This document shows, in pieces, positions 6,387-37,080 of a stretch of DNA of 64,000 bases (position 1 is the first letter of the stretch; each line of letters begins with the position of its first letter). Source of the stretch: Deltaproteobacteria bacterium GWA2_45_12 (GTDB lineage: Bacteria; UBA10199); the NCBI GenBank assembly GCA_001797365.1, contig MGPH01000052.1, positions 29,624 to 93,623 on the forward strand, read 5' to 3'. The notes beneath the pieces are model-generated. The model worked only from the letters and a program-made list of their open reading frames with translations. It did not search any database and was not told where the DNA came from. The translations under genes and the position numbers were made by a program.

Positions 6387-6414
6387 GTAGTGACAGGTCG
6401 CGACCTGTCACTAC
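6387..6414. repeat. Perfect 28-bp palindrome
   Basis: Two 14-bp arms, GTAGTGACAGGTCG and its exact reverse complement, with no spacer. It lies three bases past the stop codon of the ZIP transporter gene, so it may act as a transcript 3' end hairpin. There is no U-tract, so it is not a classic intrinsic terminator. The remainder of the 6213-6417 gap shows nothing recognisable. Confidence 0.75.
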
Positions 6415-21189: not shown

Positions 21190-21877
21190 TAAAACGATTG
21201 GTAATAATCTTCTGCCCTGCCGCATAGGCGCGCCGAACCACTTCTTTCCAATGAGTATAGGGAGATTGAAGCGCTTTATAGCGGCTTAAATCCGTCTGCA
21301 AAAGATCCCAGGGTTTGGGTTCGGCTAGCTGAATGGCCAGTTGTTGGCTGATCGAATTATCTTCCCGTTGGGGATAGAGGCGATCCAACGAATCAAGGGC
21401 TTCAAGAGCTTTTGAAACCCCCAGCCGATCAAAGAGAGCCACAAAATCAATAAAATCCCTTGTCGTGTTGCGCCGCACAACCAGATAGGCTTTAATCCGA
21501 AGCATTTCCTCGAGGGTGGGAATTTTCAAACCCCGAACAATCGTTGTTTCTAAAGGAGCCTTACGAATAAGTTGTCTTAACCCGGTTCGAACCCCCTGAA
21601 AATGCCCCAAAATAAGAACCGGCGGCTCCAATCTTTTCGTGCGCCAGCCCGCTTCTTTTTCCACTTCTTTCAAAATATTTTGAAATCGTTTTTTTAAATC
21701 CGTAAATACATGGTCAGCATCCAAAGAAATGCGATGGCCAGCATGGAGGGATGCCGCGGTCCCCCCCACAAGAATGCATTCGGGGAAATGGGACTGAAAC
21801 ACCATTTGAACGGAGAGAAGCTTTTCCCATTCGGGAAGATCGTCTATTTTTTGAGTGGTTTTTCCTTTTTTACTCAT
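21182..21877 (-). CDS. Nucleotidyltransferase-fold protein, toxin-like
   Basis: A 231-residue protein from the ATG at 21877. Seen: LVGGTAASLHAGHR followed by SLDADHVFTD, giving the G-G...D-x-D layout of the DNA polymerase beta nucleotidyltransferase fold, as in AbiEii/MenT-type toxins. Then RTGLRQLIRKAPLETT and the basic ARG-rich IKAYLVVRRNTTRDFIDF, typical of that group's C-terminal helical part. Its start overlaps the stop of the upstream 129-residue gene as ATGA. A two-gene operon with an operator-like palindrome fits a type IV-like toxin-antitoxin module. The biochemical activity is inferred from fold only. Confidence 0.72.
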   Translation of the reverse strand: MSKKGKTTQKIDDLPEWEKLLSVQMVFQSHFPECILVGGTAASLHAGHRISLDADHVFTDLKKRFQNILKEVEKEAGWRTKRLEPPVLILGHFQGVRTGLRQLIRKAPLETTIVRGLKIPTLEEMLRIKAYLVVRRNTTRDFIDFVALFDRLGVSKALEALDSLDRLYPQREDNSISQQLAIQLAEPKPWDLLQTDLSRYKALQSPYTHWKEVVRRAYAAGQKIITNRFIT

Positions 21878-22263
21878 GGGGGCAGCCCTCGTGCACGGAT
21901 TAAAAGCCCCTTCCACAGGGAAACAACCCCGTAAATTTCTGTCGAGCCCAAAACCTTCTCCAACGCTTCTGCCGAAGGGCCAAAGGGATGCTCCGAAACT
22001 TTTTGATAAAGCTCCCCCCATGCCGCAAGTGAACCTTCCGAAAGAATTTCTTCGAGATAGACGGGATCATCCCACCCGGATTGAGAGAGGCGGGTGCTGG
22101 TATGAACCGAAAGAGTGGATGCCGATTTTCCCCATCGAGCCTGGGCTGCTTTGGCTGCAATGGCCAACCGATGCTTAGCCGACAAACGCGCCGCCCGCGC
22201 CTTCCCCCCTTGCTTTCCCCATTGCTGAAAACGGTCTTTGACTTGTTTGGAAAGGTGAGCCAT
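21874..22263 (-). CDS. Putative antitoxin partner with GGKARAARLS motif
   Basis: A 129-residue protein. The N-terminal 45 residues are basic and contain GKQGGKARAARLS and IAAKAAQARW, a motif that recurs at the N-termini of small bacterial proteins and looks nucleic-acid binding. The C-terminal part (DPVYLEEILSEGSLAAWGELYQKVSEHPFG) resembles the helical regions of proteins encoded beside nucleotidyltransferases. It is the first gene of a pair, with a perfect palindrome covering its promoter, so it could be the autorepressing antitoxin. Function is inferred from context. Confidence 0.65.
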   Translation of the reverse strand: MAHLSKQVKDRFQQWGKQGGKARAARLSAKHRLAIAAKAAQARWGKSASTLSVHTSTRLSQSGWDDPVYLEEILSEGSLAAWGELYQKVSEHPFGPSAEALEKVLGSTEIYGVVSLWKGLLIRARGLPP

Positions 22264-22269
22264 AACCGG

Positions 22270-22299
22270 ATGATATGCTTACCCGGTAAGCATAGTCAA
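22270..22299 (-). promoter_or_regulatory. Promoter-operator of the nucleotidyltransferase pair
   Basis: On the minus strand TTGACT (22299-22294) and TATCAT (22275-22270) are 18 bp apart. The spacer is almost exactly a perfect inverted repeat with arms TATGCTTACC and GGTAAGCATA around one central base (22274-22294). Only 6 nt lie between the -10 box and the ATG at 22263, so the transcript should be leaderless or nearly so. Confidence 0.72.
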
Positions 22300-24899: not shown

Positions 24900-25610
24900 T
24901 TAATCCAGCCTATAGGTTTCCTGTTCTGAAAACACCTTCACATATTCCTTGGTGAGTTCACATTTTACATACTTAAGATGACCAAAATCTTTTTGAATGG
25001 CTTCCCGATTAAAAATGGGGATGCAAATGCCATCCTTATCGCGGGCCGATGGTGCTTTTAAGATATGGGCTTTATGGGCCTGAAAATCCTTGGCGAGTTT
25101 TTGACAATAAGAATACCCCGATGAGTCCTTTGAAGTAAGAAGGCTCCGATCAAGATTCTTATTGCGAGTTAAGTCCCCACAGTATTTGGATTGCACTTTA
25201 AGGCCGATCACCCGACGGGTGATCGGTAAAACCTTTTTTCCCTCCAACTCTTCCTTATAAAAATAATGAACAGCGTGATACAGTGCCTCTTTTAAGGCCG
25301 TCACTTCGGATTCAGCAGTGTAGAGCACGGCCCACGTGCCATCTGAAAAACGGGAGGAATACCAATTTTCGGGCTTAAATTTTTTTGAGATTTCCTCACC
25401 AATGAACTCGTCAATGGATCTTTTAAGAACCCTTTCTGCAGGAGATTGCATGATCGGCACCGAAGAATCATGATAGTAGAACTTTTTTAAAATCTCTTGG
25501 GCTTCATGGGATGGCGCAATATCATCGGTGAGTTCTTGGCTTGGACTCAAAGAGGCAATGTTGCGGAAAACATTTCCTTCATAATGGATAAGTTTAACGG
25601 GTTCTTTCAT
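24900..25610 (-). CDS. RES domain toxin
   Basis: Toxin half of a Res-Xre type II toxin-antitoxin pair; characterised members degrade NAD+. With the ATG at 25610 it has 236 residues. Seen: FRNIASL near the N-terminus, the hallmark WYSSRFSDGTWAVLYTAESEVTALKEALYH with the conserved Arg, Tyr and Glu, and later SYCQKLAKDF with a conserved Ser/Tyr region. Its start lies 17 bp inside the antitoxin gene, the usual coupled layout. It is longer than minimal RES toxins, with extra N-terminal sequence before the core. Confidence 0.85.
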   Translation of the reverse strand: MKEPVKLIHYEGNVFRNIASLSPSQELTDDIAPSHEAQEILKKFYYHDSSVPIMQSPAERVLKRSIDEFIGEEISKKFKPENWYSSRFSDGTWAVLYTAESEVTALKEALYHAVHYFYKEELEGKKVLPITRRVIGLKVQSKYCGDLTRNKNLDRSLLTSKDSSGYSYCQKLAKDFQAHKAHILKAPSARDKDGICIPIFNREAIQKDFGHLKYVKCELTKEYVKVFSEQETYRLD

Positions 25611-26001
25611 GATCCAAATAGCAGCGTATGGCGTGGATACCTTCTTTGCCGTCTTCAAGCATGACATCAAGAGCCGAATACCCTCCAAAACGTTCCCGTT
25701 TTACTTTGACCCATTCATAAACCGCGCTCAGGTTGTTGGGAAAAAGAATTCGAAGAGATTTGTGGATATTGATCAAATCGATGATCCGCTCTAACTTGTC
25801 ACGATCGTTATCCAAAACCGTGGCTCCTTTACGCATACTCTCTAACTTCGTTCTTTTTTCCTTGTAGTTCCATCCCAACAATTGGGCTTCCTCTTCCCTC
25901 TTTAACTGCCACTTTTGGGTGAGATTAAAAAAGGTCTGCGCCAATATTTCTCTTGTTTTTTCAGCACCAAATTCTGTTTTTGTAATAGGGTTTAATTCCA
26001 T
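25594..26001 (-). CDS. Xre/MbcA/ParS family antitoxin
   Basis: A 135-residue antitoxin. The N-terminal half has a helix-turn-helix-type region (LKREEEAQLLGWNYKEKRTKLE), expected to bind the operon promoter. The C-terminal half is the MbcA/ParS toxin-binding domain: ERIIDLINIHKSLRILFP, then FGGYSALDVMLEDG and the closing IRCYLDHERTR that plugs the RES active site in known complexes. It is transcribed first, and the toxin start overlaps its end. A short relic of a very similar gene lies at 57988-58068. Confidence 0.88.
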   Translation of the reverse strand: MELNPITKTEFGAEKTREILAQTFFNLTQKWQLKREEEAQLLGWNYKEKRTKLESMRKGATVLDNDRDKLERIIDLINIHKSLRILFPNNLSAVYEWVKVKRERFGGYSALDVMLEDGKEGIHAIRCYLDHERTR

Positions 26002-35971: not shown

Positions 35972-37080
35972 AATAATTGATCCACAACCAGTTTTGCTGC
36001 ATCCGGACGCGATAAAAGTCTTGCCGCTTGTCCCATGCTTTCCAAGCGAGTGGTGTCTTTTAGCAGGCTGGCGATCATTTCGGCAAGCTTTTCGGGAGTG
36101 CTGTTTTTTTGTTCCAACAATAAAGCCGCTCCTGCATCAACAAAAATACGGGCATTGGCCCTCTGATGGTCATCGGCAGCAAAGGGATAGGGCACCAAAA
36201 TGGAAGCAAGTCCCCAGTTGGACAAATCCGTTAATGTCCCTGCACCGGAACGGGCAATAACAAGGTTGGCTTTGGCATAGTAATTTTCAAGATCATGAAT
36301 AAACGCACAAACTTCAGCGTTTATTTTCATCTCCGCATACGTCTTACGAACAAGAGCTTCATCGGTAGGTCCCGCTTGATGGATTATTTTTAAGCCCGGA
36401 AATTTTTTTGAAATCAAACCAAATGCCTGCATGACACTCTCGTTAAGAGCATGCGCCCCTTGGGAACCCCCACAGACAAGGAGGGTTATCTCCGGATATT
36501 CTGTAGGGACAATCCTAGGATTGTCCCTACCCGATTCATCATGGCCCAACATGGCAGGCAATCGACTTCTCAATACCGGGTTCCCCGTGATCCTTACTTT
36601 TTCTTTTTTGAAATAAGAACCTGCCACATCAAAAGCCAAAAAAACTTTTTTGGCAATTTTTCCCAACCACCTGTTTGTCAAACCAGGGATGGCATTTTGA
36701 TCAACAATGGCTGTAGGAACCCTGCAAATCCAACCGGCCACCACCATGGGGCCGGAAGCATACCCTCCAATGCCCAAAACAGCCGTTGGCCTGTACCTGG
36801 CCATAATCCATAAACTCTTTACAAGGGCTAAGGGCAAAAGCACCAATGTCTTTAACCGTACCACAACACTGCTTCCCTTTAATTTGGAAACAGGAACGGT
36901 CTCAAGCTTATATCCATAATGGGGCACCAAATTTTTCTCCAACCCGTAGTTGGTCCCAACAAAAAGCACCTCACCCCCGCGAGCGCACCAGTCTTCGGCT
37001 ACAGCCAAGCCGGAATACAAATGCCCCCCTGTTCCTCCCCCTGCAATGAGGAGAAGGGATTGTGTTTGTGGATTGGTCAT
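35935..37080 (-). CDS. murG: UDP-GlcNAc:lipid I GlcNAc transferase MurG
   Basis: Membrane-peripheral GT-B enzyme converting lipid I to lipid II. It has 381 residues, slightly long. Seen: IAGGGTGGHLYSGLAVAE at the N-terminus, GIGGYASGPMVVA, DQNAIPGLTNR, the donor-site LLVCGGSQGAHALNES, and RSGAGTLTDL. Two oddities are visible. Residues about 184-193 (RDNPRIVPTE) are encoded by a perfect 28-bp palindrome at 36503-36530. The C-terminal tail and stop codon come from another repeat. Both spots are loop or tail positions by family comparison, so the enzyme is probably active. Confidence 0.96.
   Translation of the reverse strand: MTNPQTQSLLLIAGGGTGGHLYSGLAVAEDWCARGGEVLFVGTNYGLEKNLVPHYGYKLETVPVSKLKGSSVVVRLKTLVLLPLALVKSLWIMARYRPTAVLGIGGYASGPMVVAGWICRVPTAIVDQNAIPGLTNRWLGKIAKKVFLAFDVAGSYFKKEKVRITGNPVLRSRLPAMLGHDESGRDNPRIVPTEYPEITLLVCGGSQGAHALNESVMQAFGLISKKFPGLKIIHQAGPTDEALVRKTYAEMKINAEVCAFIHDLENYYAKANLVIARSGAGTLTDLSNWGLASILVPYPFAADDHQRANARIFVDAGAALLLEQKNSTPEKLAEMIASLLKDTTRLESMGQAARLLSRPDAAKLVVDQLLSPFEKGGHRGI
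36503..36530. repeat. Perfect 28-bp palindrome inside murG
   Basis: Arms GTAGGGACAATCCT and AGGATTGTCCCTAC with no spacer. It lies in frame between the two Rossmann domains of MurG, where homologues usually go straight from the LGHDE-like region to the ITLLVCGGSQG strand. Its ends resemble the GTAGGGG/CCCCTAC family found between genes. Confidence 0.8.

Follow-up and report, generated by a model that had tools for sequence, protein, structure and literature searches.

What do two overlapping genes encode when the promoter in front of them is filled by an inverted repeat? This is the question raised by the 64,000-nucleotide stretch of DNA analysed here (the window), in which a basic protein of 129 residues (P1; 21874–22263, minus strand) precedes a 231-residue nucleotidyltransferase (NTase) of the AbiEii/MenT type, DUF1814 (P2; 21182–21877, minus strand). 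A preliminary description proposed an autorepressed toxin–antitoxin (TA) module under a leaderless promoter, and direct reading of the sequence agrees with the layout that it gave. TTGACT-18-TATCAT lies at 22299–22270 on the minus strand, with the −35 hexamer at 22294–22299 and the −10 hexamer at 22270–22275. The spacer is filled by a perfect 10-1-10 inverted repeat, TATGCTTACC-C-GGTAAGCATA (22274–22294), which is symmetric at 20 of 21 positions and whose right arm shares the first bases of the −10 box. That box ends 6 nt (22264–22269, minus strand) ahead of the P1 start codon, ATG at 22263–22261, and the P1 stop and P2 start overlap as ATGA (21874–21877, minus strand), which is predicted to couple their translation. 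Because the gap between the −10 box and the ATG is only 6 nt (5–7 nt in relatives), there is no room for a Shine–Dalgarno leader, and the transcript start predicted from the position of the −10 box falls at or next to the ATG, which would make the mRNA leaderless.

The hexamers alone mean little, since about 1.9 promoter-like sites of this kind are expected in shuffles and one is found in 20.9–22.7 kb; their significance comes from conservation. The dyad pattern, allowing up to three mismatches, matches once in the window against a shuffle mean of 0.01, and TTGAC-N19-TAnnAT also matches once. The dyad, which was recovered by a pattern search and a separate scan and is absent from the seed-7 repeat listing, is single-copy in the 2.46-Mb genome by pattern search, and a dispersed repeat was rejected on this count. 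The possibility of an RNA element was likewise rejected, because a palindrome between −35 and −10 precedes every RNA that this promoter could start. A crude test found a leaderless-type promoter at 0 of the 37 longer open reading frames in the window.

Loss of the palindrome in front of homologous pairs had been named as the result that would overturn the TA reading. Relatives were drawn from 46 genomes of a single class, which in this set makes up the entire phylum; we take it to be GTDB UBA10199, and its named members are groundwater 'Deltaproteobacteria' metagenome-assembled genomes (MAGs). Fifteen intact pairs are found, in only about 14–15 of the 46 genomes, with P1 and P2 together at all 15 loci; P1 relatives are 41–58% identical (about 48%) and P2 relatives 63–76% (about 70%). 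All 15 pairs keep TTGAC-ATGCTTACCCCCTAAGCATA-nnAT, 5–7 nt ahead of the P1 start. TTGAC is invariant and fixed in position; a left arm of CTTA type, a centre rich in C, the invariant right arm TAAGCATA and TAnnAT follow, so that the conserved core reads CTTA-CCCCC-TAAGCATA, and every copy has an 18-nt spacer. Pairwise identity over the 30-nt operator–promoter is 0.84 versus 0.25 in the upstream flank (15 pairs), and mean information is 1.62 versus 0.16 bits per position. The palindrome is thus kept, and with it the autorepressed TA reading is supported, but its perfection is a property of the window copy: relatives are symmetric at only 10–16 of 21 positions, and the C5 centre is itself asymmetric.

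The operator is also specific to the pair. A search of the 46 class genomes with up to three mismatches hits 14 genomes, once in each, and no controls; 13 of these sites are at the pair and one (L037) is ahead of a decayed P1. A regulon beyond the pair was rejected on this basis. The search missed one locus, L010, where the 19-bp core faces the opposite way to the promoter in an exact inversion; a dyad bound by a dimer should tolerate this, and the inversion fits a dimer site. Around the pair, tblastx of 1.5–3 kb flanks revealed no obvious neighbours in common; the matches are mostly short and scattered, with weak matches of 38–100 residues common to the flanks of L011, L030 and L013. At L019–L029, more distant AbiEii relatives from within and outside the class, neither a convincing P1 relative nor such an operator was seen; the best P1-like match has an E value of 0.058 (L025), and L026 is exceptional as a decayed copy of the module. 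Plasmid carriage was rejected, as neither P1 nor two further heads matched any plasmid searched; phage carriage was likewise rejected, as P1 had no match among phage records and P2 and the operator had none in viral contigs.

P2 matches Pfam AbiEii (PF08843) at 5.1e-7, above the cut-off, and its AlphaFold model (pLDDT 91.6) has among its best Foldseek matches JHP933 (7.6e-6), MenT1 (5.5e-5) and MenT4 (2.8e-4). All four DUF1814 motifs are present (GG38–39, R49, D53-A-D55, K129, R136 and R140-D-F-I-D144), and S51 and the MenT-like catalytic residues D53, K129 and D144 are kept. AbiEii loses its toxicity when its counterparts of these motif residues are mutated (PMC3985639). MenT1 is phosphorylated at T39, two residues before D41 (PMC11375011, PMC10435456), and S51 of P2 occupies the equivalent position two residues before its DxD.

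P1, by comparison, falls in no described antitoxin family, as the preliminary description had suspected of this partner. Neither it nor its 14 relatives fall in a Pfam family, P1 has no NCBIfam or PADLOC match, and a search of the PDB with its profile recovers no chain, not even MenA1; the sole match is of its motif region to the uncharacterised phrog_2384. The predicted structure (pLDDT 83.5) consists of a two-helix hairpin carrying GGKARAARLS, the GGKARA head (residues about 6–43), and a four-helix C-terminal domain (about 67–124); it has no significant structural match in the PDB or BFVD and no recognisable DNA-binding fold, both of which count against the autorepressor reading. A literature search with the GGKARA motif string returned only histone and other unrelated papers, and no paper describing a P1-type partner was found in a search that fell short of most subscription journals. 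The papers on AbiEii and MenT found in this search describe partners of the COG5340, COG4861 and MenA1 types.

Two known systems bear comparison. Like AbiE (AbiEi–AbiEii, a type IV TA system), the pair is bicistronic, with the putative repressor first and a DUF1814 NTase with motifs I–IV second, and inverted repeats lie over the promoter (PMC3985639, PMC7319586). In contrast to AbiE, P1 is not detectably a winged-helix protein of the AbiEi/COG5340 type, a single compact dyad of 19–21 bp sits inside the spacer in place of two 23-bp repeats, and the promoter is placed for what would be a leaderless start. With MenAT1 of M. tuberculosis the pair shares the predicted MenT1-like fold with its catalytic DxD, K and D, a small antitoxin that is not AbiEi, and a serine or threonine at the phosphorylation site, two positions ahead of the DxD (PMC11375011). 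MenA1, however, is without a DNA-binding domain, and MenAT1 is reported not to autoregulate (PMC11375011); that some MenA antitoxins behave in this way counts against autorepression here. Because P1 falls outside AbiEi, we place the pair as a DUF1814-type TA module with an undescribed class of repressor–antitoxin.

A further indication of which member is the toxin comes from damaged copies. P2 is affected at four loci of this pair (type A), in a small sample of MAGs in which some lesions could be assembly errors: D53A at L009, an 11-residue deletion across the catalytic loop at L010, the loss of about 117 N-terminal residues at L017, and a 5-residue insertion in the catalytic loop of an orphan P2-like gene at L013 (genome G006). 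P1 and the operator are kept at the first three and both lost at L013; genome G033 has, at L026, a broken second copy of the module. Every apparently intact P2 at the loci examined had P1 beside it. P2 decays more often than P1 and the operator, and we infer that this unevenness is the mark of a toxin, which would lend indirect support to neutralisation by P1.

The same loci bear on the idea that the operon is regulated but not toxic, with P1 only controlling a housekeeping or defence RNA-modifying enzyme. The orphan gene at L013 speaks for such an operon, but its catalytic loop carries the insertion, and the other lesions strike the catalytic core while P1 and the operator stay intact. The patchy distribution in the class, with no obvious shared flanking genes, also argues against housekeeping, and we regard a non-toxic operon as unlikely. 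A reversal of roles, as in HEPN-MNT systems, would make the NTase the antitoxin and P1, which is small, all-helical and adjoins an NTase, the toxin. P1 lacks the HEPN motif, however, with no invariant histidine and no R-x4-6-H among the invariant columns of 15 sequences, P2 is a full-length DUF1814 protein rather than a minimal NTase (MNT), and it is P1 that is conserved and P2 that decays; this reversal is barely credible. Finally, a dyad that fills an 18-nt spacer in all copies invites comparison with MerR, in which case P1 would activate by remodelling a promoter with a slightly long spacer rather than repress it. Such a spacer would be 19–20 nt, though, the near-consensus TTGACA/TATAAT promoters of L011 and L034 would be strong unaided, and P1 has no MerR match, all of which makes activation very improbable. 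The pair is probably a bicistronic autorepressed NTase TA module in which P1 represents an undescribed repressor–antitoxin class.

The GGKARA head extends beyond this module. A P1 profile search finds it in other short proteins of the same genomes, ahead of two further NTase types. Type B proteins (60–88 residues) overlap or adjoin an NTase of about 178 residues at 17 of 19 loci, and all 19 carry a spacer dyad, CTTA[GC]CG[CG]TAA, mostly at the same short distance from the start; the window genome itself has one such locus (contig C32). The two exceptions are L097, where no NTase was found and the head is damaged, and L093 (G004:C31), where the type B gene and its intact operator are followed by a different NTase-like reading frame and a 72-residue one, a possible partner swap. 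Type C proteins (about 150–170 residues) precede a DUF6036 NTase, a family on which our literature search found no paper. At one such pair, L167 (G221:C59), the NTase has D-x-N for D-x-D (TLDVNL), possibly a natural catalytic lesion. A type C pair in G163, outside the class but in the same domain, has the type A core CTTACCCCCTAAGCATA, and operator-like dyads are seen as CTTACCCCCTTAGTATA in G252 and as TACGTACCC..GCGTA/TACGTA in G221 and G074. A search of 385 genomes with the pattern CTTACCCCNTAAGCATA gives seven sites, each of them at a GGK gene (six of type A and the type C gene of G163), and none in controls.

The operator therefore tracks the head rather than the kind of NTase, and it is mainly for this reason that we would assign DNA reading to the head. 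With slightly better than even confidence, we suggest that the GGKARA head is a small DNA-binding domain, sequence-specific and so far undescribed, that reads GCTTA/TAAGC-type half-sites and has been joined to various toxin-neutralising tails serving three or more NTase families (AbiEii, AbiEii/DUF2204-like and DUF6036). Leaderless autorepressors with spacer operators may thus form a superfamily that spans phyla. The head by itself does not denote an antitoxin, since some proteins that carry it have no NTase next to them.

Several other occurrences of the head were noted. At L065/L101 (G006:C24) a P63C-domain protein (PF10546) carries it as a fusion, and at L169 it begins a 333-residue protein inside an IS-like element. 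TAGTGGGTCAGTTTGAA occurs in inverted pairs, 2.3–3.5 kb apart, flanking an IS1-like transposase gene (family judged by eye) at L169 (G087), L170 (G269) and L171 (G202), and also at L064, L098, L105 and L138; these are likely terminal inverted repeats, and L169 and L170 each have a gene for a short protein with a GGKARA tail immediately within one of the ends. In the viral contigs L138–L140, CTTAGCGCTAAG, the type B operator core, stands ahead of a GGKARA-tailed protein. Elsewhere in the window, about 2.7 kb from the module, a second TA pair (24900–26001, minus strand) combines a RES-domain toxin (PF08808, 3e-16) with an Xre/MbcA/ParS antitoxin (PF09722, 4e-6) encoded ahead of it. Two 28-bp perfect palindromes at 6387–6414 and 36503–36530, of outer form GTAG[TG]GACA...TGTC[AC]CTAC, are possibly the ends of a small mobile element.

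As a working model for the DUF1814 module, drawn from the sequence and the predicted structures, P1 would be the first product of an mRNA with a short leader or none, and a P1 dimer would bind the dyad between −35 and −10 through its two-helix head. Because the dyad occupies the spacer, the bound dimer would exclude RNA polymerase and so block transcription. The C-terminal domain of P1 would neutralise P2, which ATGA coupling may keep in limited amounts, dependent on translation of P1; were P1 lost, P2 would stall growth by nucleotide transfer to RNA, most likely tRNA.

NTase toxins of the DUF1814 type are widespread and their antitoxins diverse, and to our knowledge several of these antitoxins have no known regulator. 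The GGKARA head would offer a single motif, tied to a defined DNA target, that links several NTase families, DUF6036 among them. As the short operator pattern found GGK-head genes in the 385 genomes without a false match, it may be used to find further systems.
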